A stretch of 64,000 nt of DNA from Runella sp. MFBS21. GTDB taxonomy: Bacteria > Bacteroidota > Bacteroidia > Cytophagales > Spirosomataceae. Within the stretch, counting starts at the first letter, position 1, and each line of letters begins with the position of its first letter. The notes beneath the pieces are model-generated. The model saw only the letters and a list, made by a program, of their open reading frames with translations. It made no database searches and had not been told where the DNA came from. This document shows positions 6,669-54,587 of this stretch, in pieces. The position numbers and the translations under genes are program-made. Location of the stretch: assembly GCF_029433105.1 (NCBI RefSeq), contig NZ_JARNTW010000017.1, positions 62,001-126,000 on the forward strand, read 5' to 3'.

Positions 6669-7337
6669 TTAACCCTTGCTATAATGAAGGGCTAATTCTT
6701 CCTCTTCTTGTAAATCATATCGGTAGATAGATTCCACAGGAGAGTTGGGAGGGATTTCCATGATAGAATTGATAAGACCCGTATGAAGGTCAAACACCCA
6801 TCCATGTAAATGAGGGTAATTACGTTTTTTCCAAGCCCTTTGTATGATAGTTGTTTTGGCCAAGTTCATTGTTTGCTCCATTACATTGAGCTCTACTAGC
6901 TTGTTAAATCTATCATTAAATTCTGGAACGCTCTCAAGTTCTTCTTCGTGTTTGGCATACACATCTTTGATATTACGCAGCCACTTGTTGATAAGCCCGT
7001 AGTCTTTATTGGTCATCGCAGCTTTTACGCCGCCGCACCCATAGTGACCGACTACCAATACATGTTTTACTTCTAATACCTCTACAGCATACTGTAATAC
7101 GCTCAACATATTGATGTCGGTGTGAAGAATAAGATTGGCTACATTACGGTGCACAAAGATTTCGCCTGGAGCGGTGCCTGTTACTTCATTGGCAGGCACA
7201 CGACTATCAGCGCAGCCAATCCATAGAAATTCGGGTTTTTGATCGGCGGCTAGTTCGTCAAAATAAGTTTCGTTAACTCTTAATTTATCGGAAGCCCAAG
7301 CTTTATTAGCTAAAAGGAGTTTTTGATATGATTGCAT
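6669..7337 (-). CDS. can: beta-class carbonic anhydrase
   Basis: A 222-residue beta-carbonic anhydrase that interconverts CO2 and bicarbonate in the cytoplasm. The zinc ligands are visible: C42 and D44 with R46 in [12 protein letters not shown], then H98 and C101 in [14 protein letters not shown] start at MQSYQK, which overlaps the end of the upstream SulP gene by 32 bp. A longer reading 22 codons upstream would lie even deeper inside it and adds nothing family-like. The overlap with a SulP anion transporter, itself preceded by another SulP gene, makes a sulP-sulP-can operon. By analogy with SulP-carbonic anhydrase pairs elsewhere, the set probably handles bicarbonate. Confidence 0.93.
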
Positions 7338-8871
7338 TTTTGAAAGAATATTTATGTGGTGAAATTCCTTTAAATTCAACTTGAATGCCTCGATAGAAGG
7401 CATCTTTTTTAAAATCTTCTAAGAGTCGGAAAATATCATGGTCGATAAATTCGGCTCTTGTACCATCAATGTAGACCGAATCCCCTTTTTCAAAAGAATC
7501 TAAGAGGCTTTTGAGATAAGCTTTATTCATAAAAGTGACATCTTTCATGAATAGAATCAAGATGTTCTGTTGGTCACGAGCTACACTGATTGCATAGCGA
7601 TTGTTAGTAACAATAATGGAAACTATCCCCGTCAGCAATCCCAATACAATTCCTAAGAGCAAGTCGGAGAAAATAATCCCAACAATCGTTACAAAAAATG
7701 GTAAAAACTGTGGAAGACTTTTGAGGTCTAGTTGGGGAAGCTCTTGGGAAGTTGCTAGCTTGTATCCTATTAGTAACAACAAAGCGGCTAAACAGGCCAA
7801 AGGAATAAAATTGAGTAATTGCGGAATGGTAATGACGGCAATCAACATCAATATCCCTTGAATAAAAGCTGATAGGCGCGTTTTGCTCCCACTGTATATG
7901 TTGACAGAAGTACGAAGAGTCACCAAGGTCAGCGGTAGTCCTCCAATAAGCCCCGATACCATATTGCCTATCCCTTGCGCTTTGAGTTCTTGGCTTGGCG
8001 ATGAAATACGGCGCTGAGGGTCGAGCTTGTCGGCTACTTCAAGACTTAAAAGAGACTCAATACTTGCTACAAGTGTAAGCGTAAAAGCCGCCAAGTAAAC
8101 TTTGGGGTTGGAAAGAGCTTCCCAAGCTGGAAAATGAAAAGCACTAGAAGCATCTTCAAGGCTTAAAATAAGAGGTACTTTTACTAAGTGACTGCTCTCA
8201 CTTAAGTAAAACGACGGAATCCATAATTTGAAAACTTGGTTCATCAAGACTCCCGTAAGTACTACCAACAGGCTGATAGGAAATATCTTGAAAAATCGAA
8301 AGTCTTTTTTCGAAAAATATTCCCAAGTTATCATCAAAGCTAAGCAGGTGATGCTAATGGCAATAGCTCCAGGGTGAGGGTGACTGATAGCCTCGATAAT
8401 TTCAGAAAAGGTATTGTGATGATTGAGTTGTAAAAAATCAAATTCTCCTTCTACATCGGCATCCCAGCCTAGAGCATGGGGGATTTGTTTGAGGATAATC
8501 ACAATGCCAATCGCTACCAACATACCGTTGATGACACTCGACGGTACAAAACTACTGAGTCTTCCTGCTTTGAGCCATCCTAGTAGGTATTGTAGTGCAC
8601 CCGCCAATACTACTGCCGCAAGGAAGTGAGAAAAACTCCCCAGTACCGCAATACTATCTAATACGATGATAGTAAGCCCCGCCGCAGGACCACTCACACT
8701 TACCTCAGACCCAGAGAATAAAGTAACCACAATTCCCCCCACAATTCCTGCCAAAAGCCCCGAAAACAAAGGTGCCCCTGATGCCAAGGCAATGCCGAGG
8801 CATAAAGGGAGGGTCACCAAAAAAACCGATAAACCTGCTGAAAAATCTTTATTAAAATGCTTTAGAGTCAT
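7306..8871 (-). CDS. SulP family anion permease (likely bicarbonate or sulfate), first copy
   Basis: A 521-residue SulP/SLC26 transporter. The signature near the N-terminus is [20 protein letters not shown]. About ten further hydrophobic segments follow, including [15 protein letters not shown], and residues 290-345 carry the conserved [22 protein letters not shown]-terminal STAS domain (about residues 440-510, [20 protein letters not shown]) is present. SulP proteins move sulfate, bicarbonate or dicarboxylates. Here the 3' end overlaps a beta-carbonic anhydrase gene, which favours bicarbonate (inference). It lies 36 bp after a second SulP gene on the same strand. Confidence 0.9.
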
Positions 8872-8907: not shown

Positions 8908-10461
8908 TCAGTGAGCTGCTAGTCCTTTAAACTCTGGAATATTTCGTAGCTCAAGGCTGATTCCTCTCAAAAGGGCAGTTTCTTTGAAATTGTGGATGAT
9001 TTCAAGCACATCCAAATCAATGTTGTGAGATTTACTACCATCAATGACGACATTAGAATTTTCTGGAAGTTTGTCTAAAGTCAGTGTAATAACCCCCTTA
9101 TTAATAAACGTCACATCTTCTACCAACTGAATCGTGATTTTTTCGTTTTCTTGATGCTCCTCTTTCATCAGTAAGTACGCACGGCGGTAGTTGTTGCGCA
9201 AGATGAAAAAGATAGAAATCGCGATTCCGATAATAATTCCTTTGAGCAAATCAGTGAACAAAATAGCAACAATCGTTACCACAAAAGGAATGAACTGCTC
9301 CCAGCCTAAATCATACATGGATTTAAACAAAGATAGTTTGGCAAGTTTGTAGCCTACAATTAGTAAGACCGCAGCTAAGCAAGCTAGGGGAATTTGATTG
9401 AGCAAGTTTGCAAATCCAACTACACTGATAAACAAGAAAAGCCCGTGAATGATAGCTGATTTCTTGGTCTTTCCTCCTGAGTTGATGTTGGCCGAACTAC
9501 GTACTATAACAGCCGTAAGAGGCAATCCTCCAATCAATCCTGATATTATATTACCAAGGCCTTGTGCCTTCAATTCACGATTTGTAGGGGTGTTACGTTT
9601 ATAAGGGTCGAGCTTGTCGGCGGCTTCTACGCTGAGTAAGGATTCCAAACTTGCTACGATTGCAATCGTAATCGCCACCACATAAACTTGATAATTGGCA
9701 AGACCCGAAAAATCGGGAAGGGTAAACTGTCCCACAAACTCTTGGAGCGAATTAGCCACGGGTAGCTTTACCAAATGGTCGTTGGCAAGGGCCATTTTAG
9801 GAAAAGAAACTTTAAAAATTTGGTTTAATACAATCCCTAAAATCACCACAATAAGTGCTCCTGGTACAAACTTGAAAAAGGCGTATCTTTTCAAAAAAGG
9901 CTTGTCCCATAAAATCAAAATCAAAAGCGAGATACTTGATATGATAATGGCTCCAGGGTGCAGAAAGTTGAGGGCATTGAGGATTTCTGAAAAAGTATTT
10001 TGACCATCTACCTGTAGAAAAACGAAATCACCTTCGCTGTCTTTATCATAGCCCAAAGCGTGAGGGATTTGTTTAAAAACCAAGATAAGCCCAATTGCCG
10101 CTAGCATTCCTTTGATGACACTTGACGGGAAATAGTGCCCTATAATACCAGCCTTCAAATACCCTAAAATAACCTGTAAGATACCAGCCAATACCACGGC
10201 GGCCAAAAAAACTTCGTAGGAGCCCAGTTGTTGGATAGAGTTAAGGACAATTACTGTGAGGCCAGCAGCAGGTCCACTAACACTTAGAGGGGAGCCGCTT
10301 GCCAATGCCACCACGATTCCGCCCACTATCCCAGTAATAATCCCTGAAAAAAGTGGGGCTCCAGAGGCTAATGCAATCCCTAAACAGAGAGGCAATGCCA
10401 CCAAAAATACCACTAATCCTGCCGGTAAATCATGTTTTAAATCTTTAAGTAGGTCCTTCAT
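8908..10461 (-). CDS. SulP family anion permease, second copy
   Basis: A 517-residue SulP/SLC26 permease clearly paralogous to its downstream neighbour. It shares [55 protein letters not shown] and a C-terminal STAS domain (VIDGSKSHNIDLDVLEIIHN, about residues 455-475). It is the first gene of the inferred sulP-sulP-can operon, with 226 bp before it for a promoter. The substrate (bicarbonate rather than sulfate) is inferred from linkage to carbonic anhydrase. No sulfate-assimilation gene is nearby. Confidence 0.9.
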   Translation of the reverse strand: MKDLLKDLKHDLPAGLVVFLVALPLCLGIALASGAPLFSGIITGIVGGIVVALASGSPLSVSGPAAGLTVIVLNSIQQLGSYEVFLAAVVLAGILQVILGYLKAGIIGHYFPSSVIKGMLAAIGLILVFKQIPHALGYDKDSEGDFVFLQVDGQNTFSEILNALNFLHPGAIIISSISLLILILWDKPFLKRYAFFKFVPGALIVVILGIVLNQIFKVSFPKMALANDHLVKLPVANSLQEFVGQFTLPDFSGLANYQVYVVAITIAIVASLESLLSVEAADKLDPYKRNTPTNRELKAQGLGNIISGLIGGLPLTAVIVRSSANINSGGKTKKSAIIHGLFLFISVVGFANLLNQIPLACLAAVLLIVGYKLAKLSLFKSMYDLGWEQFIPFVVTIVAILFTDLLKGIIIGIAISIFFILRNNYRRAYLLMKEEHQENEKITIQLVEDVTFINKGVITLTLDKLPENSNVVIDGSKSHNIDLDVLEIIHNFKETALLRGISLELRNIPEFKGLAAH

Positions 10462-13120: not shown

Positions 13121-14743
13121 TTAAGCTATTTCTACTCTACTTTTACGAAGGTGCTTTGGCAAACGTCGTGCGGCCAAAGGATGCTCCGAAAGTGCCTCGT
13201 GTTTATCTAAACCTCGGAAAGTCAATACACCTCCTGCAGCTTCAAAATCTTTTCTAAAGTTGTTGAGATTGTCGGCTACTGTATGATCTACGTAAGTTGC
13301 TTTTGAGAAATCAATCACCAATGAACTACCCGCAGGAACTTGAGCGATAATCTTTTTGAGTTTAAGGTAATTGGCAAAAACGGCGGCATTGTTTACATTC
13401 AACTGATACACTCCTACTTCTTTTTCGGTAAGATCAAAACGTGACTTTAAAATGTCGCTGATTTTGACTCCAAAAGCTATTTGAATGATGAACTTGGTAA
13501 TAATACCGGCGGCAATCCCTACCAATAAATCGGTAGCTAAGGTAGTAATAATAGTAATAAGGAAGATAGTAAGCTGCTCTTTACCAATGTGGTAGATGTG
13601 CGCAAACTCCCGAGGAGAAGCCAACCGAAACCCTACAAAAATTAACATGGCTGCTAATGAGGCTACTGGCACCATTTTGATGACAGGTACAAGCAATACA
13701 ACAAACAAAAGTAAAAAAACACCGTGGAAGAAATTGGCCCATCGGCTTTTGGCGCCATTGTTGATATTGGCCGAGCTACGTGCTACTTCCGAAATCATAG
13801 GTAAGCCTCCCAACAATCCCGCAATAACGTTACCGATTCCTACGGCTGTAATATCCTGACTTAAGTTTGACTTGCGTTTTTCGGGATCAATCAAATCGAT
13901 GGCACGGCCAGTGAGAAGTGACTCTAAACTTCCGATGAGGACAAACATCAAAAGGTATTTCAAAAATATCGGTAATAGGGTAGAATCTGTAAGCCCCGCA
14001 AAATCGGCGTTGAAGCTAAAAGAAAAATCGCCTGGATTAACGAGTGGCTTAAGATTTTTGTAAGAAGGTTCAGTCAAGTGAAAATACTGTCCTAGCAACA
14101 CACCCACTACCAATACAATCAAAGCAGGGGGGACTTTTTTGAGGGCTTTAATATTAAGATACTGCCATCCAAACATAATAAAAAGACTTACACCGCCAAT
14201 AATCGCAATATGATACTCCATATGTGCGAGACTGTGAGGAACCATTTCGAGCAGTTCGAGGGGCTCTTTGCCCTTCATTTCGGCAGGTGCTGTACCTACG
14301 GCTAGGTGGAGCTGCTTCGACATAATAATGATTCCAATCGCGGCTAACATGCCATGAACGGCAGAAAGCGGAACGAAATCTACAAACTTGGCTACTTTTA
14401 ATAACCCTAATAGAACTTGTATTAGCCCAGCGACTACGATTACGCCCAGCGCAAGTTTCCAGCCGTGCTCCATGTCTCCTTTGCCTAGCTCATCTACAGC
14501 TCCTGCTACAATCACTATCAACCCTGCTGCGGGGCCTTTGATGGTGAGTTCCGAGCCAGCAAAAAAAGCAACCACCATACCTCCAACGATAGCGGTCATT
14601 ACGCCCATAATAGGAGGGAAGTTACTAGCTCCTGCAATGCCTAAGCACAGCGGGAGAGCAATCAAAGAAACTAAGAAGCCAGAGAGGAGGTCGGTGCTCC
14701 AATGGTGCGATAAGCTACTAAAAATACTTTGCTTTGATCTCAT
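13121..14743 (-). CDS. SulP family anion permease, third copy, next to a two-component system
   Basis: A 540-residue SulP/SLC26 permease that I start at MRSKQSIF. It has [40 protein letters not shown] and ITAVGIGNVIAGLLGGLPMI. A C-terminal STAS domain (SSLVIDFSKATYVDHTVADN, about residues 455-475) is followed by a basic tail RRLPKHLRKSRVE. It is more divergent than the tandem pair at 7.3-10.5 kb. It lies 87 bp downstream of a histidine kinase gene on the same strand. That gap holds five 11-bp-phased TTAA half-sites and a possible -7 box, so expression is probably set by the adjoining response regulator. The substrate may be bicarbonate or sulfate. Confidence 0.9.
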   Translation of the reverse strand: MRSKQSIFSSLSHHWSTDLLSGFLVSLIALPLCLGIAGASNFPPIMGVMTAIVGGMVVAFFAGSELTIKGPAAGLIVIVAGAVDELGKGDMEHGWKLALGVIVVAGLIQVLLGLLKVAKFVDFVPLSAVHGMLAAIGIIIMSKQLHLAVGTAPAEMKGKEPLELLEMVPHSLAHMEYHIAIIGGVSLFIMFGWQYLNIKALKKVPPALIVLVVGVLLGQYFHLTEPSYKNLKPLVNPGDFSFSFNADFAGLTDSTLLPIFLKYLLMFVLIGSLESLLTGRAIDLIDPEKRKSNLSQDITAVGIGNVIAGLLGGLPMISEVARSSANINNGAKSRWANFFHGVFLLLFVVLLVPVIKMVPVASLAAMLIFVGFRLASPREFAHIYHIGKEQLTIFLITIITTLATDLLVGIAAGIITKFIIQIAFGVKISDILKSRFDLTEKEVGVYQLNVNNAAVFANYLKLKKIIAQVPAGSSLVIDFSKATYVDHTVADNLNNFRKDFEAAGGVLTFRGLDKHEALSEHPLAARRLPKHLRKSRVEIA

Positions 14744-14764
14744 AACAACAATTGTGTAGAAGTA

Positions 14765-14772
14765 GAAATTTA
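14765..14772 (-). promoter_or_regulatory. candidate -7 box for the third SulP gene
   Basis: On the minus strand this reads TAAATTTC, one base from the Bacteroidota -7 consensus TAnnTTTG, 21 nt upstream of the SulP start codon. The expected -33 position (about 14791-14794) falls inside the phased TTAA array and lacks a TTG, as is common at activator-dependent promoters. Confidence 0.35.
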
Positions 14773-14785
14773 ACAGCACAAAAGT

Positions 14786-14835
14786 GTTAAGAGCCCATTA
14801 AACCCTCATTAAGGGCAGATTAAAAGGAAATTAAA
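14786..14835 (-). promoter_or_regulatory. five 11-bp-phased TTTAAY half-sites, probable OmpR/PhoB-type operator
   Basis: On the plus strand (G/A)TTAA begins at 14786, 14797, 14808, 14819 and 14830, exactly 11 bp apart each time. Read in the direction of the SulP gene the sites are TTTAAT, TTTAAT, CTTAAT, TTTAAT and CTTAAC with 5-bp spacers. Direct repeats at 11-bp spacing are how OmpR/PhoB-family response regulators bind. A regulator of that family is encoded just upstream in the same gene set. The array overlaps the kinase stop codon and ends close to the expected -33 position of the SulP promoter. Confidence 0.6.
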
Positions 14836-16195
14836 ATGGAATCGTAACCACAAACTGACTCCCCAATCCTATTTGCGAAAAAACCCAAATCCGACCGTTG
14901 TGAAGTTCGATGATACGTCGAGTAAGAGCAAGCCCCACTCCATAGCCTTTGACATACTGAGTGGAGTTGGCGCGATAAAAAGGCTCGAAGATATGAGGTA
15001 AATCGGCTTCCGAAATACCAACGCCTCGGTCGCTAAATGAAATCCTGATATGATCTTCTTGGGCGCGAAGTGTCAAACTAACGTGATGGTCAGGAGAATA
15101 TTTACAGCCATTTTCCATAAGGTTTAGGAAGGCTGTTTGTAGAAGAGCCGAATCTCCTTTGATTTGTAGCAAAGCTTCTTCTTCTGGAAATTCCTCAAAT
15201 TCAATCTGAATATCATAATCTGGACAGTGATGTATCAAAATATCGCGTGTTTGCCAAAGAAGATCATCTACTCTAAGTTCTGAAAAATGATTCTGTGAGA
15301 CTTCATCATTGAGGCGAGCCAATTCTAAGAGCCCATTTACCAAGTCGCGCATTTTTTTTACTTCGTCGATCGTTTCCTTTATGGTCTCTTGGTATTCTTC
15401 AATCGTACGTTTTTGGAGTAGTGATACTTCCAGCTGCCCCATCATGATAGCCAAAGGGGTACGTAGTTCGTGGGAAGCATGAGAGACAAAACTTTTTTGG
15501 GAACTAAAAGCATCTTCCAGACGACTCAAGAGATCATTGAATGTCGCCGCCAGTTGGGCAAGTTCATCGTTTTGTCGCCCTATTTTAAGGCGTTCGTGGA
15601 TATTACGGGCGGAGATATTTTTTACTTGTTCGATGATATCCGAGACAGGCCGTAGGGCATCGCTCGAAAACAACCAGCCCGCTAGTACTACCATTAGTAA
15701 ACTTACGGCCCAGCCAGTGATAAGGATAGTTCGGAGACGTTCGAGAATACTAATGCCGTACTTATCTATAGCATAAGCTACTACCACCAAGACTTGCTTT
15801 TTCTGGTCGATGTACCTTACTCCTACGATTTCTTTGTCGCCATCTCTTAGACTTACATCCTTACCTTGCCTTACTTGATTCAAAAAATTAGCATTGATAT
15901 GATAAGGTTCTTCGCCACTATCATACACCACGTGATTGTGGGCATCATACACCGTAATCTCCTCTTTGTACATCGTGGTGAGGTCATTGCGGCTAATATC
16001 GTGTAATAGCTCTTCGGTGATGCCCCCTACATCTTCAAAAAGACGAACTGTAGTGAGCGCCTTGTCACGAAGGCGTTTTTTAAACTCCTGTTCTCGGTAC
16101 TGATTGTATAAATAATAGACTGAAAAAGAAAATACCAGCATAATTGACGCGACCAAAAGAGCGAAAAGCAAAGTAAGGCGGACGCGGATATTCAT
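14831..16195 (-). CDS. membrane sensor histidine kinase (HAMP-HisKA-HATPase)
   Basis: A 454-residue sensor kinase with two membrane segments (about residues 8-29 and 157-176) enclosing a periplasmic sensing region of roughly 125 residues. A HAMP linker follows (residues about 178-230), then the HisKA domain with the phospho-acceptor H242 in SHASHELRTPLA. The ATPase domain has the N box at N362 (LMENGCKYS), G1 DRGVGI near 389-394 and G2 GYGVGLAL near 418. The response regulator gene ends 21 bp upstream on the same strand, so they are a cognate pair. A SulP transporter gene follows. The signal is unknown, and an inorganic anion or envelope cue is a guess from linkage. Confidence 0.93.
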   Translation of the reverse strand: MNIRVRLTLLFALLVASIMLVFSFSVYYLYNQYREQEFKKRLRDKALTTVRLFEDVGGITEELLHDISRNDLTTMYKEEITVYDAHNHVVYDSGEEPYHINANFLNQVRQGKDVSLRDGDKEIVGVRYIDQKKQVLVVVAYAIDKYGISILERLRTILITGWAVSLLMVVLAGWLFSSDALRPVSDIIEQVKNISARNIHERLKIGRQNDELAQLAATFNDLLSRLEDAFSSQKSFVSHASHELRTPLAIMMGQLEVSLLQKRTIEEYQETIKETIDEVKKMRDLVNGLLELARLNDEVSQNHFSELRVDDLLWQTRDILIHHCPDYDIQIEFEEFPEEEALLQIKGDSALLQTAFLNLMENGCKYSPDHHVSLTLRAQEDHIRISFSDRGVGISEADLPHIFEPFYRANSTQYVKGYGVGLALTRRIIELHNGRIWVFSQIGLGSQFVVTIPF

Positions 16196-16216: not shown

Positions 16217-16894
16217 CTAAAATTCTTTCATAATATAACCCATGCCTACTACCGTATGGATAAGCTTATGTTCAAATTCTTTATCTATTTTTTTTCGAAG
16301 AAAATTCACATATACATCTATGGTATTAGTACCAGTATCAAAGTGAATATCCCAGACTTTTTCGGCAATGTCTACCCTTGATACGACTCTCCCTTTATTA
16401 CGAATAAAATATTCAAGAAGACCGAATTCTTTGGCTGTAAGCTCAATTCGATTTCCCCCACGCCGGGCAATACGTTCGTTGAGGTCTAGTTCTAAATCCG
16501 CGATTTTTAGGACGTTACTGGTCGGTCCACTTTCCGAATTACGTTTTTGTAAGGCTCTTAGCCTGATAATTAATTCCTGGAATTCAAAGGGTTTTACAAG
16601 ATAATCATCCGCTCCTGCATCGAAGCCTGAGATTTTATCATTGAGCGTGCCAAGAGCCGTAAGCATGAGTATAGGAGTGCGGAGATTTTCGCGACGCAGA
16701 AGATTCGCCAATTCAAAACCATTGATTTTGGGGAGGTTTACATCCAACACAATTACATCGTAAGAATTAGATAAAGCCAAGCTGCTGCCCATTTGTCCAT
16801 CAAAAGCCACATCTACTTCCCAAGATTGTTCTTCGAGACCTTTTTTGACAAACGCCGCTAATTTGGGTTCGTCTTCAACAATTAAAACTTTCAT
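16217..16894 (-). CDS. OmpR-family response regulator
   Basis: A 225-residue response regulator. The receiver domain has D8, phospho-acceptor D51 (VIVLDVNLP), T79 and K101 (YLVKPFEF), all in the canonical places. The C-terminal winged helix (about residues 130-223) ends in the typical NTIDVYVNFLRKKID and VVGMGYIM. It is the first gene of the regulator-kinase-SulP set and probably binds the 11-bp-phased TTAA repeats at 14786-14835, and possibly 16978-16994. Autoregulation is likely but not shown. Confidence 0.94.
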   Translation of the reverse strand: MKVLIVEDEPKLAAFVKKGLEEQSWEVDVAFDGQMGSSLALSNSYDVIVLDVNLPKINGFELANLLRRENLRTPILMLTALGTLNDKISGFDAGADDYLVKPFEFQELIIRLRALQKRNSESGPTSNVLKIADLELDLNERIARRGGNRIELTAKEFGLLEYFIRNKGRVVSRVDIAEKVWDIHFDTGTNTIDVYVNFLRKKIDKEFEHKLIHTVVGMGYIMKEF

Positions 16895-49841: not shown

Positions 49842-51710
49842 TTATGAGGAACGATAGGCGGTTTCATAAATAGATTTTACATGAGGCCCAAGGAAAACCC
49901 TCGCGTAGATTCGGATGATGGCAATACCATCAATGATAAAACTAAGCGAAGTAAAGAAGGCTAATGTAACTTGATTTTCGTGTATATGGCTGAAAATCAA
50001 GTCTTCTCCGATGAAAGTGGGTGTAATGGGAAAGCCCGACACTCCCAAACATGCCAACAAAAAAATCAAGGCAAGTTTGGGATGCTTGTATGAATGTCCA
50101 TGAAATTGATCTAGATTAATATTGCCTTCCAGAGATTTGAGCTTCAAAAGTCCAAAATAACCCACTACTCCTGCTACTACGATTCCGCTCAAATAAAGCA
50201 GCGTTTGATTAAACTTAAAGTGTTCATTAAAAGAAATAGAAAGTGCAATCCAGAAGTGATTCATGATAACAAGCAACCAGCTCATGGGGGTATTGTGCCT
50301 TTCGGTAAATGACTTTAATACCATTATCAATCCTAAAAGCGAAAAGAAAATGGGTAAATAAGCATGAACGTTTTGAGGAATGGAATTTTCAAAATACAAA
50401 CAAATCAATCCTAGTATATAAGCCGGAATAAAGAAAAACAAGGTGCGATTGACAGTCAAAAAATTCAGTTTATTGCCAGCCCATTTTAGCGGATTCCAAA
50501 GCGATTGGTACATCAATGAGTCTAGGTTCCATTCTTTGATGCTCAACATATACAGCGTGTACTGAAGTTTTTTTGGAAAGAAACGCTCGATTGAAGACTC
50601 GCGAGGGGAAAAATTATAGAACTGCTCGTGAATAAGATAACTTACTACCGAAGGCGAAACCAACAATTGATAGGTACGTAAGAAAGCATTTCCAGCAAAA
50701 TGAAGCATAGCCAAACCTTCAAAACCACTAGCTACTTCTATAAAAATCAATCCGATTTGGGCAATAGAAGCATAGGCTATTTGGCTCTTGACCGATGACT
50801 GCACACGAGCGATACCAGTGGCAATAAAAGTAGTAGATAAGCCCAATAGCGCAATCAGGATACGTACTGAAAGCTGATGTTCCCAAAAAGGATAGGTACG
50901 TAACAACAAGAAAACACCCAAATGCACCGAAAGCGAACCATAAAAAATTGCACTAGAAGGCGTGGGACCTTCCATGGCTCTAGGCAACCATGATGAAAAA
51001 GGAAGTTGTGCCGACTTGGCAGCTGCCGACATCAGAATCATCACTGAAATAAAAATCCCAATCCAACTATGGCTTTGAAGATGTTCGTGCACAAGCTCAT
51101 AATTGCTCAATTTCAAAAAAGTAATGTTTTCATGAAATAGATGATGACTCATCCACATTGCTAAAATCAATCCTACATCACCAATCCGATACACCGAAAA
51201 TACTTTCACCGCATTTTTGACAGGTAGATAACGGTCTCTGTAAAAGGCGATTAATAGAAAGGAAGAGATGCCTAAGATTTCCCAACCAATGAAAAGAGTT
51301 TCGAGATTGCCCGAAAGAATGGCAATGTTGTATCCTAAATAAAAGAAAAGAATAGTATTGAAAAATCGTTTGTAGCCATTTTCACGATGCAAGTAAGCAC
51401 GGCTATAAATAGTCACTAGAAAGGTGAGAAAAGACCCTACAAACAAATAAGTAGCGGCAATAGCATCAAAGCAGAAGTCGATAAAAAATTCGTAGCCTGT
51501 CGATTTGAAAAGTACAATGTCTTTGATGTTGAGGGTAGGATACCCTTGCAGTATCCAAAAACCAATAAATGTCACCGTACACAGTAAATGAAGCCCCACC
51601 GTTCCAAAGGCCGTTTTTGACATAATGCCTTCTTTATGAGCCGGAACAAACAGACTTAAAACAAAACCCACAATGGGCAAAACAATGAAAATATGCAAGA
51701 ACGCCGTCAT
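49842..51710 (-). CDS. dabB: DabB, membrane subunit of a DAB inorganic-carbon pump
   Basis: A 622-residue integral membrane protein of the NADH-quinone oxidoreductase subunit L/Mrp antiporter superfamily. The conserved Glu is in FIGWEILGISSFLLIAFYRD, and the classical KSAQLPFSSWLPRAMEGPTP lies near residue 240. No other Complex I gene is present. It lies 9 bp downstream of a DabA gene, and this pairing defines DAB pumps. DabB is thought to pass cations inward to power the DabA-catalysed, one-way hydration of CO2 to bicarbonate. Pump direction and the driving ion are known only from homologues. Confidence 0.87.
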   Translation of the reverse strand: MTAFLHIFIVLPIVGFVLSLFVPAHKEGIMSKTAFGTVGLHLLCTVTFIGFWILQGYPTLNIKDIVLFKSTGYEFFIDFCFDAIAATYLFVGSFLTFLVTIYSRAYLHRENGYKRFFNTILFFYLGYNIAILSGNLETLFIGWEILGISSFLLIAFYRDRYLPVKNAVKVFSVYRIGDVGLILAMWMSHHLFHENITFLKLSNYELVHEHLQSHSWIGIFISVMILMSAAAKSAQLPFSSWLPRAMEGPTPSSAIFYGSLSVHLGVFLLLRTYPFWEHQLSVRILIALLGLSTTFIATGIARVQSSVKSQIAYASIAQIGLIFIEVASGFEGLAMLHFAGNAFLRTYQLLVSPSVVSYLIHEQFYNFSPRESSIERFFPKKLQYTLYMLSIKEWNLDSLMYQSLWNPLKWAGNKLNFLTVNRTLFFFIPAYILGLICLYFENSIPQNVHAYLPIFFSLLGLIMVLKSFTERHNTPMSWLLVIMNHFWIALSISFNEHFKFNQTLLYLSGIVVAGVVGYFGLLKLKSLEGNINLDQFHGHSYKHPKLALIFLLACLGVSGFPITPTFIGEDLIFSHIHENQVTLAFFTSLSFIIDGIAIIRIYARVFLGPHVKSIYETAYRSS

Positions 51711-51719
51711 GGTGCAATC

Positions 51720-54218
51720 TTAAGAAAGTGAATAAACAGGAAGGTTTTCGTGATGAATTTCTAATAAAGGAGATAGGTTTTCTATCGCCTCTAGCTGCGC
51801 TCGAAGAGGAGCATAAGGCACAAATGTACCATCTCTGAAAACCATTAGCTCTTGAGTATCAGGATGAATAGCCACTAGATTTACCCATTCATTGATAAAC
51901 CATTCGTAAGTAGCTGGATTTTTCTGGATAGTATTCAGAACTACTTCAGGATAGTGCTCTACAATCATCAACAAACGCACAGGGTCGTGAATCTCAATCA
52001 TCTGACTTGGTAAGCCCGGACGTAGGTCTCCGTCAATGCCATTGGCTACTCCAAAAAGTCCCATCACATTGTGAGGGAGTTTGGTGCCTGCCCCGAGTTT
52101 TTGATTGTCCACTCTTGAGAAATAATATTCTAAGTTGATACCTCCGCATACAGGTGCAGCGGCATTGAGGATATTGAGCAGATATTTGCCTTCAGGGTCT
52201 ACCTGAAAATCAAAGGAGTTCATGAAAGCGCGTCGATCCAAAAACAAGCCCTTCGACAAAGAGCGACGTCCTATAATACAGAGTGCATTAGTGGCGTGGT
52301 TGAGTTCGGGGCGTGGCTCAAACAATGATACGGAGCGTAGCCGTATTTTTTCATGGATTTTTTCGGGACTCAACGACGTATCGATTGATTCAAACCTTCT
52401 TGACCTCTCTTTAGCGTTGAAATCCAAGGCTCTTTCAAAAGTAGCCTCGTTTTTGATATGATATTCTTTATTTTTATGAGAGAGGGAATCTTCGTCAAAA
52501 AACATGATTTCATCGCGAGTAGTATCATGTAAACCTCCCACAAATTGGGTTTCTGAAGGAATTACAATACCCTTAGCGGCCAAAATAGCCCTTACTTGGG
52601 GGTGATTGGCCATGAATGAAAGCACGCGCGAATTGACTGATCCTGCCCGACCTGCGCACGCTCCACAGTCATAAGCCGCATAATGAGGATTGTTGACACT
52701 GCTCGACCCATGCCCTACTACATATACTATCGGTGCAAAATCTTTGACCAAACCTATGCTTTTGAGGACGTTTTCTACCCGAATCGCCATTTCTTCGATA
52801 GTAAAACCAATCTGAAGGCCATTTTCTTGGTGGTCGGTGTGTTTGTTTTCAATGGTCAATTTTGAAAACTTATCCATGTGTTTGAAGGAGGACGCCGTTG
52901 CCGGGCTCATTGAGGGCCTGAATACGTTAGCAAAAAGTTTGGCGGCCGACCAAAAACCAATGGTTTGCGAAATCAACCATCCGCCATAAAAAGAGTGAGA
53001 ATGCTTCGTAAAGTGAATGTCTTTTTGTCGCCGATTTTTGATACCTACTTCTTTGATGAGGTATTTGGGAGTGACGGGCGCAGGGCACACTTTGGTATAA
53101 AACTTTCCGTCTTGAGGTTGATAAAAAAACTCTACTCCAAAAAAACCAGGCGTGCCAAACGTCTCACAAGTAGGGTCAAATTCCTCTAAATAACGCCGTA
53201 GGGAGCATTCGCGGTCGTCGATACAAAACATCGCCTGAAAGCTTTTCTTTGGAGATTGCAGCTTTTGTTTTTTAGGCGTTTTTAAACCTGCCAATACTTG
53301 ATCATAATAATTCCACTCAAAAGCTTCTTGCCACAGTGTAAGCACTTCATGTAATTCTCTATGGTGTACCTTGGCAAAAAGCGGGGTAGGAGGATGATGG
53401 ACTTTTTCGCTCAACGGAAGCCAATCTGTACTGCCATGATGAAAATCAAGGGCATCGATTTCGAGCAATAGCTCCACTACAATCAAATCGTGGATTGATA
53501 TTTGGCGAGGGTCGAGCAGGGTTTGAGGCTGGTCTTCAATCGCCGACACCATCCCCGACCATCCTTGGTGGGCAAATTGCTGGTCAAAAAGATAGTCCTG
53601 ATACAAGGCTTCGTCACCAATCAGAATTTTCAATAAGGTTTTGATGTCGCAAGGAGTGTCTAATAGCAATTGTTTGGCGCGTTTGCCTCTAAAAATGCTC
53701 ATTAGGCTATTTTTTTCTAGCTCACGAAGCGATGAAAGAAAACTTTGTTCTTTCACTGGAAAATTCCAAATCGAAATTCCTTGGTCAAGATAGCTACAAA
53801 GAACGCGGAAAAGCAAAGGATGAACCAGCGAATCAAGGTCAACATGATATTGTTTTTTCCAATGAGCTCTTAAGGCACCAATACGTGGTAAGGTGGTATG
53901 AGTGTAGGATTTTGAAAGTAGCTTTTCGAGCCATTCCGTAGCGTGCTTTGAGCCTTTCCGCTCGTAGACTATTCTTTGCAAAACCTCGTCACTGATACGT
54001 TTGGAGGCATAAAAAGAGCGATATTCTTCCAATGAAAGCATTACCTTGTATCCAAATATCTCTGACGCACTATTGAGGGCATCAAAAAATTTGAGATGTT
54101 GGAATGCGTGAAGTGTATTGTGATGGATAAAATCTTTGAGCGGTGCTTGGGCAGGTAAAAAGTGCTTTAATTCGTGAAGCACTTCGTGTTCGTTAAAGTC
54201 TGCATTAAGTGTTTTCAT
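51720..54218 (-). CDS. dabA: DabA, zinc-dependent CO2-hydrating subunit of a DAB pump (UPF0753/DUF2309)
   Basis: An 832-residue cytoplasmic protein that I start at MKTLNADFNEHEVLHELKHF. The beta-carbonic-anhydrase-like zinc site is visible: C332 and D334 in AMFCIDDRECSLRRYLEE, H503 in VVGHGSSSVNNPHY, and C518 in AYDCGACAGRAG. The spacing matches the characterised DabA site. The N-terminal FIHHNTLHAFQHLKFFD is also family-typical. With DabB it makes the DAB energy-coupled carbon-accumulation complex at the inner membrane. No RuBisCO, carboxysome or CbbR gene is in the window, so it probably feeds anaplerotic or biosynthetic carboxylases. Confidence 0.93.
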   Translation of the reverse strand: MKTLNADFNEHEVLHELKHFLPAQAPLKDFIHHNTLHAFQHLKFFDALNSASEIFGYKVMLSLEEYRSFYASKRISDEVLQRIVYERKGSKHATEWLEKLLSKSYTHTTLPRIGALRAHWKKQYHVDLDSLVHPLLFRVLCSYLDQGISIWNFPVKEQSFLSSLRELEKNSLMSIFRGKRAKQLLLDTPCDIKTLLKILIGDEALYQDYLFDQQFAHQGWSGMVSAIEDQPQTLLDPRQISIHDLIVVELLLEIDALDFHHGSTDWLPLSEKVHHPPTPLFAKVHHRELHEVLTLWQEAFEWNYYDQVLAGLKTPKKQKLQSPKKSFQAMFCIDDRECSLRRYLEEFDPTCETFGTPGFFGVEFFYQPQDGKFYTKVCPAPVTPKYLIKEVGIKNRRQKDIHFTKHSHSFYGGWLISQTIGFWSAAKLFANVFRPSMSPATASSFKHMDKFSKLTIENKHTDHQENGLQIGFTIEEMAIRVENVLKSIGLVKDFAPIVYVVGHGSSSVNNPHYAAYDCGACAGRAGSVNSRVLSFMANHPQVRAILAAKGIVIPSETQFVGGLHDTTRDEIMFFDEDSLSHKNKEYHIKNEATFERALDFNAKERSRRFESIDTSLSPEKIHEKIRLRSVSLFEPRPELNHATNALCIIGRRSLSKGLFLDRRAFMNSFDFQVDPEGKYLLNILNAAAPVCGGINLEYYFSRVDNQKLGAGTKLPHNVMGLFGVANGIDGDLRPGLPSQMIEIHDPVRLLMIVEHYPEVVLNTIQKNPATYEWFINEWVNLVAIHPDTQELMVFRDGTFVPYAPLRAQLEAIENLSPLLEIHHENLPVYSLS

Positions 54219-54587
54219 GTGTGTACTATACGGTGTTATACAGAAAGCTGACGCTCGTTGGAGTAATGGCGCGAAGTAAATTTGCGTCGTTTTTTTTTGA
54301 TAAGTCAAAGCTAATCAATGCTACAATTGGAAAGATTAATTAGTGATTAAAATACAAATTGATTGTATGCACGTTTTTTGAGTAAGACGCTGATTAGTAT
54401 AAGGTGATGTATCGTTTTTTGGTAATTAAGTTGTTGTTTTACAGTGTATTGTGTTTGTTTTTCTAGTTAAAGTTTTTGAGCCGATAAGGTAATAGAATAA
54501 GGTTTATGTTCTTTTTTTAATCCTATTTTAATCTTCAAAAGGTTCTTGAAAAGAGGCTTAGTTCTTCAAAAAATGGACGAAACCTCT
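54219..54587. other. divergent intergenic region upstream of dabA
   Basis: AT-rich, with no credible coding sequence or RNA gene. It should hold the dabA promoter on the minus strand, but I cannot pick a clear -33/-7 pair. Confidence 0.4.

Follow-up and report, generated by a model that had tools for sequence, protein, structure and literature searches.

A conserved array of TTAA half-sites in front of a SulP gene of Runella sp. MFBS21, the probable operator of a two-component system probably linked to inorganic-carbon uptake

Background

The pho boxes of PhoB in Escherichia coli are tandem 11-bp direct repeats, two boxes making four half-sites, and they take the place of the -35 element. The array described here, which lies in front of a SulP gene in a 64,000-nucleotide stretch of the genome of Runella sp. 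MFBS21 (the window), resembles the pho boxes in its tandem 11-bp repeats and four conserved half-sites, but its half-site is a different one and a -33-like TTTG still stands 14 nt downstream. The PmrA (BasR) box of Klebsiella and Salmonella is described as head-to-tail CTTAAG or xTTAAT half-sites 5 bp apart (PMC3973317), and it has in common with the Runella array an OmpR/PhoB-type regulator, a TTAA core and an 11-bp step; the solved PmrA/BasR chains are sequence relatives of the window regulator. In contrast to the window array, with its four half-sites at a constant 14 nt from a Bacteroidota-type TTTG, the PmrA box has two half-sites, and the targets are unrelated.

The closest curated families for the regulator and kinase of the window are those of CusRS/CopRS, but the regulator scores 252.7 against its best model, TIGR01387 (cztR_silR_copR, cut-off 279.2), and the kinase 234.2 against TIGR01386 (cztS_silS_copS, cut-off 292.55), and the neighbour is a SulP gene in the window and Dab and carbonic anhydrase genes in its kin. 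RprY of P. gingivalis was considered and set aside, with a score of 127.6 against a cut-off of 370; the available portion of its paper contains neither "motif" nor "consensus".

DAB2 has been presented as a complex that takes up CO2 through vectorial hydration (PMC13144422). The window and its kin share with DAB pumps a Pfam match to DabA, and with BicA-type transporters membership of the SulP family (205.8 for the window SulP against PF00916, gathering score 23.2), but the window SulP is far below the cut-off of the BicA model (133.8 against NCBIfam NF050096, cut-off 880). Membership of the SulP family is not proof of bicarbonate transport, since an E. coli that requires CO2 was rescued by one T. 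pelophila protein of this family (SulP-CS) but not by another (SulP) (PMC12628692). Among the titles and opening lines of abstracts listed in searches of the open-licence literature, none named a two-component regulator of Dab or SulP genes.

Results and Discussion

Genes of the window

The window contains three SulP genes, a carbonic anhydrase gene and dabAB. The genes that enter the argument are the following.

13121..14743, minus strand: SulP gene, 540 aa, presumed target (PF00916)
14831..16195, minus strand: sensor histidine kinase (HAMP, HisKA, HATPase_c)
16217..16894, minus strand: response regulator of the OmpR/PhoB type that presumably binds the array (Response_reg PF00072 and Trans_reg_C PF00486)
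6669..7403, minus strand: beta-carbonic anhydrase, last gene of a SulP-SulP-carbonic anhydrase run (PF00484)
7306..8871, minus strand: SulP1, another SulP gene (family match)
8908..10461, minus strand: SulP2, another SulP gene, with no array in front (family match)
49842..51710, minus strand: DabB-like subunit adjoining DabA (Proton_antipo_M)
51720..54308, minus strand: DabA (PF10070), with only a weakly array-like stretch upstream

The start of the presumed target is most likely the ATG at 14743 rather than the GTG that heads its ORF; the resulting 540 aa fits the lengths of own-genus orthologues. A PF10070 DabA next to a Proton_antipo_M DabB-like protein (49842-54308) identifies a DAB pump. 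A structure model of the kinase (mean pLDDT 73, pTM 0.41) compared with the PDB gave mostly kinase-core matches among those listed, with no hint of the signal, and an Rfam scan of the window returned 0 matches.

The array and its geometry

Response regulator, histidine kinase, array and SulP follow one another on the minus strand, and the elements of the array and its surroundings, all read from the sequence, are these.

14830..14834, minus strand: half-site 1 (canonical, TTAAT), sharing bases with the kinase stop codon
14819..14823, minus strand: half-site 2 (canonical, TTAAT)
14808..14812, minus strand: half-site 3 (canonical, TTAAT)
14797..14801, minus strand: half-site 4 (canonical, TTAAT), with TTTG beginning 14 nt downstream
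14786..14790, minus strand: half-site 5 (extra, TTAAC), within the 14-nt gap between half-site 4 and TTTG
14779..14782, minus strand: TTTG, matching the -33 box of Bacteroidota promoters (PMC7366714)
16979..16993, no strand assigned: pair of TTAA half-sites at an 11-bp step, about 100 bp upstream of the regulator gene, TTAAY pointing away from it

Read on the SulP strand from 14834 down to 14786, the array is TTAAT-N6-TTAAT-N6-TTAAT-N6-TTAAT-N6-TTAAC, followed by ACT and then by TTTG at 14782-14779, which places half-site 5 at 3 nt from TTTG. An earlier note made from the sequence alone had reported five half-sites starting at 14786, 14797, 14808, 14819 and 14830 in exact 11-bp register, and the sequence bears this out. 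Its (G/A)TTAA half-site is correct for the forward strand (GTTAA at 14786-14790, ATTAA at 14797-14801, 14808-14812, 14819-14823 and 14830-14834), and on the strand of SulP the half-site is TTAAY. The same note had the array touching the kinase stop codon, ending near the expected -33 position of SulP and lying downstream of an OmpR/PhoB-family regulator; half-site 1 does cover 14831-14833, TTTG lies at 14779-14782 with its 14-nt offset from half-site 4 recurring in relatives, and the Response_reg and Trans_reg_C protein is encoded on the same strand with its near end about 1.4 kb upstream.

Compared by eye with TAnnTTTG at -7, the window shows only a weak TACACAATTG 20 nt past TTTG, and consensus scans for sigma-70 promoters and terminators gave matches near the shuffle level. 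From TTTG to the ATG of SulP the distance (14743-14782) is 39 nt; in Runella, DabA and four SulP genes have 29-31 nt, as do the HyfB-like genes of Larkinella (L165, L061, L074). If TTTG is the -33 box, distances so short imply that the mRNAs would be leaderless or nearly so; leaderless mRNAs are rare (5.5%) in F. psychrophilum (PMC9723704). The half-site pair upstream of the regulator gene is present in 11/11 own-genus loci fetched and is possibly a site of autoregulation.

Frequency in shuffled sequence and in the genome

In 300 dinucleotide shuffles of the window, in which TTAA is about twice as frequent as in the real sequence, runs of three TTAA at 11 bp averaged 0.07 per window and runs of four or five numbered 0. 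The 7.88-Mb genome holds a single run of five, the window array; runs of four occur twice and runs of three five times. Shorter patterns discriminate poorly: the TTTAAY-N5-TTTAAY pattern that the earlier note proposed for a genome scan showed no enrichment (16 matches versus 31 in the reversed control), and a three-site pattern was enriched only two-fold (12 versus 6 in the reversed control, per strand). The composite of four half-sites, 14 nt and TTTG, with at most three mismatches, occurs at 8 sites in the genome and its reversed pattern at 0. The distinctive feature is the long array, above all in combination with TTTG.

Elsewhere in this genome, a four-site array with TTTG at 14 nt (L051:5813) precedes a gene for a 128-aa lipoprotein-like protein and then a TolC-like gene, recognised by eye. 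At C12:423000-436000 (L052), TTAA arrays lie by a paralogous kinase and in the space between NhaD-like and CaCA-like genes, with TTAAGG, not TTAAY, as the last half-site; regulators akin to that of the window may therefore use a common half-site.

Conservation in front of SulP

Close SulP orthologues, defined by E<=1e-180, numbered 23 in 150 genomes of the family, and four half-sites were found within 500 bp upstream of 20 of them (19 plus G129, locus L174). The array has three properties expected of an OmpR/PhoB-type operator, namely direct repeats of about 11 bp, a nearby regulator with receiver and winged-helix domains, and conservation in front of the same gene. The other three orthologues belong to G040, which has three of the four half-sites; to G058, where SulP has no array of its own and stands behind a HyfB-like gene that has one; and to G026, where SulP stands behind dabA-dabB and neither has an array. 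TTTG is exactly at offset 14 in 16/23. No four-site array was found in the scan of G124 and G134, both of the same genus.

Loss of the repeats from the corresponding gaps of relatives had been named beforehand as evidence against the operator reading; the array is kept wherever the order regulator-kinase-SulP is kept. That order is not general. A kinase search of the 150 family genomes gave 30 loci, all 30 with the regulator orthologue beside the kinase, and SulP was within the 1.5-kb flanks in the window genome and G086 only. In four other genomes of the genus (G031, G050, G063, G103) 48-68 kb separate SulP from the kinase, and in G129 the two are on different contigs; in all five the array is at SulP and the gap behind the kinase has none. 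Where the two genes are apart, the array goes with SulP, not with the kinase.

The five-site array reported by the earlier note is real in the window, but the conserved unit is one of four half-sites. Among fetched arrays before SulP, Dab or HyfB-like genes, half-site 5 is confined to the window and its sister G086 (98-99% identical). In-register fifth sites in G096 and G077 are not before such genes, and runs of five occur in 7 of 81 sites of named genomes among the matches listed.

Wider occurrence and fixed spacing

A scan for four TTAAY half-sites matched 55/150 family genomes with 89 rows, against 9 in the reversed control; merging overlapping registers and second strands by hand left 82 arrays, of which 33 start on the same strand as a kinase orthologue and 0-72 bp from its 3' end. 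Kinases were compared in a set of 71, the best match per genome at E<=2.1e-124, with weaker best matches left out. Spacing was counted in a separate, overlapping set of 82 distinct arrays from 83 rows (L051-L190), chosen regardless of TTTG and excluding the window. In it TTTG is at offset 14 in 52 of the 82 arrays of all kinds (4 arrays at the next most frequent offset). Of 33 arrays before SulP, DabA or HyfB-like genes, likewise chosen regardless of TTTG, 27 have TTTG 14 nt past half-site 4 (5 at the next most frequent offset).

Across the class, the composite is present in 22/395 genomes at 31 places (reversed control 0), with 4 of the 22 genomes in the window's family and 18 outside it. A scan of named genomes gave at least 119 stretches with the composite, of which 80 were examined, yielding 81 sites. 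These sites were picked for TTTG, so that a tally mixing them with unselected arrays would be biased, and they were therefore left out of the spacing count. Judged by title, the stretches among the matches listed are from Bacteroidota or their kin (Ignavibacteria, Kryptonia) except L250, L264 and L302; L250 is a Peptococcaceae MAG and L264 is Herminiimonas, where the motif may reflect chance, contamination or transfer. A related kinase ends within 300 bp upstream at 41/81 sites among the matches listed. On the same basis the downstream gene is SulP at 13 sites, HyfB-like at 3, DabA at 2, a regulator at 1 and TolC-like, a label resting on a motif guessed by eye, at about 13; it has no family assignment at 36/81, and at 13/81 no gene lies that way within reach.

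Probable target genes in relatives

The order kinase-array-SulP recurs in nine named Hymenobacteraceae loci (Pontibacter, Rufibacter, Adhaeribacter and Hymenobacter) among the matches listed, with carbonic anhydrase after SulP in 6/9; L263 ends inside SulP, and L317 and L325 have no such gene. In four own-genus loci (L015-L018) the four-site array at the kinase end precedes DabA, and in four Larkinella loci (g17; G058 in the family scan) it lies slightly further down from the kinase, before a HyfB-like gene.

A four-site array was found within 700 bp upstream in 7/30 DabA loci, three of the 30 holding less than 400 bp upstream; the seven are 5/11 own-genus loci, G058 and G029, the last with its kinase orthologue on another contig. 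Wider stretches added dabA arrays in G068, G002 and G038. In G002 and G038 a single divergent gap holds two arrays, one facing SulP and the other dabA, and in G119 arrays precede two SulP genes, DabA and a HyfB-like gene heading a complex-I-like operon. In the window itself, an array was looked for upstream of the SulP2-SulP1-carbonic anhydrase run and none was found, and the best composite score upstream of dabA is 13/20, with a background mode of 12. The dabA site that matches the window's scores 15/20 in G063, G031, G050 and G103; scores of at least 15 were reached by 7/400 random stretches, one of them the real array.

The array-bearing gene of L059, L069 and L074 was considered as DabB and rejected, Pfam and NCBIfam (L059, L074) placing it nearer to hydrogenase-4 subunit B; matches of 20-27% identity to the window DabB in relatives are accordingly called HyfB-like. 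At L059:4681-12038 this gene lies between dabAB and SulP and heads an operon with NADHdh, Proton_antipo_M, and 49-kDa and 20-kDa type subunits.

Since arrays in relatives precede dabA, the HyfB-like gene, and SulP with carbonic anhydrase behind it, the regulon, which the earlier note had not noticed, is probably one of inorganic-carbon (CO2 or bicarbonate) uptake. What the sequences show directly is the repeats with their conservation and spacing and the families of the genes behind them; the substrate of SulP and the signal of the system are inferred.

A candidate small RNA in Dyadobacter-like genomes

A search of 200 family genomes found an invariant 19-mer, TTGAGTTAGGTGAGTAGTA, once per genome in 28/33 genomes of the Dyadobacter-like group g32, with one further match, containing a mismatch, in G123.

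L375-L402, about position 1501, strand not given: TTGAGTTAGGTGAGTAGTA 19-mer and hairpin (sequence match)

The 19-mer is directly 3' of SulP in 7/28 genomes. In the other 21, a stretch of 82-343 nt without SulP separates it from the end of a kinase upstream, and there four half-sites lie upstream of the 19-mer in 21/21 and TTTG is at 14 nt in 19/21. A terminator-like hairpin and T-run follow, with two-sided changes at 6/11 stem pairs; set A3 comprised 26 of the 28 exact loci, the near-duplicates L379 and L398 being left out. Rfam gave no match on four g32 loci. The 19-mer and hairpin look like a candidate small RNA transcribed from the array promoter.

Proposed mechanism and alternatives

The reading that we consider probable is that the array serves the adjacent two-component system as its operator and activates SulP, that in relatives it acts in trans before SulP, SulP-carbonic anhydrase, dabAB and the HyfB-like gene, and that the system probably turns on inorganic-carbon uptake. 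The phosphorylated OmpR-type regulator would align head-to-tail on the four 11-bp half-sites as two dimers. The edge facing the promoter would then lie 14 nt short of the -33 TTTG box, and the regulator would recruit RNA polymerase there for transcription of SulP; the two dimers and the contact with polymerase at -33 are suggested by analogy with the head-to-tail pair of PmrA. The activator model of the earlier note is favoured by the conserved array before SulP orthologues and by the fixed distance to a -33-like TTTG, as an activator needs. Regulators of the OmpR type are able to repress, and half-site 5 at 14786 is only 3 nt from TTTG, which would suit a regulator that holds SulP off until released. 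We regard this as improbable, for a constant distance separates the four canonical sites from the TTTG downstream of them, the geometry of an activator, and half-site 5 before SulP, Dab and HyfB-like genes is limited to the window and G086. Chance in an A+T-rich gap, for which the unenriched two-half-site pattern speaks, may be practically dismissed in view of the shuffles, the class-wide reversed control and the conservation.

A different regulator and a different purpose are both somewhat better candidates, and both are unlikely. That a paralogous OmpR-type regulator rather than the neighbour binds the array, to our minds the less likely of the two by a little, would agree with a TTAA core common to several kinase subgroups and with the TTAA/11-bp arrays near another kinase of the same genome (C12:430494) with its NhaD-like and CaCA-like genes, but not so readily with the 33/82 arrays at the 3' end of a window-kinase orthologue in the 150 genomes, or with the related kinase directly upstream in 41/81 named-genome sites among the matches listed. 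The other candidate is a metal-stress regulator like CusRS/CopRS, with SulP and the other transporters belonging to a metal or envelope response and no more than an incidental connection with carbon. Besides the best family models, it has in its favour a TTAA array before a CusA-type RND gene beside the orthologous pair in 5/11 g5 loci (L066, L067, L071, L073, L079; L071 is above the CusA/CzcA cut-off and the other four share its start), and in a quick-method kinase tree with 32 tips (31 of 34 kinases and the window) the ten kinases whose array is followed by a TolC-like gene make up a single clade. It has against it that regulator and kinase stay below the curated cut-offs, that the neighbours in Runella, Larkinella and Hymenobacteraceae are SulP, Dab, HyfB-like and carbonic anhydrase genes, and that 14 kinases with carbon-type targets are outside the efflux clade, in Hymenobacteraceae and Spirosomataceae groups. 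Three genomes with a CusA array (G148, G131, G039) and G126 also have an array before SulP (L178, L182-L184), and the carbon-type labels on the tree require at least three label changes. We read this as a single operator type that was retained as its targets changed.

Conclusions

To our knowledge, how non-photosynthetic bacteria sense a shortage of CO2 or bicarbonate is largely an open question. It is possible, as a proposal that we advance tentatively and would not yet count on, that heterotrophic Bacteroidota own a two-component system dedicated to CO2/bicarbonate scarcity, in which a CopR-like regulator would have been put to a new use: acting from a rigid operator of four half-sites 14 nt ahead of the -33 box, it would switch on SulP, DabAB, a HyfB/complex-I-like unit and carbonic anhydrase. 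Dyadobacter-like genomes would also make a small RNA from this promoter, kept where no SulP gene is behind it. The case is a caution against labelling such systems metal sensors from homology alone, and the strict motif offers a handle on activator-dependent promoters in Bacteroidota. With a regulator, an operator of strict geometry and uptake genes all readable from the DNA, the question becomes testable in cultured relatives, for example Runella, Larkinella, Dyadobacter or Pontibacter.
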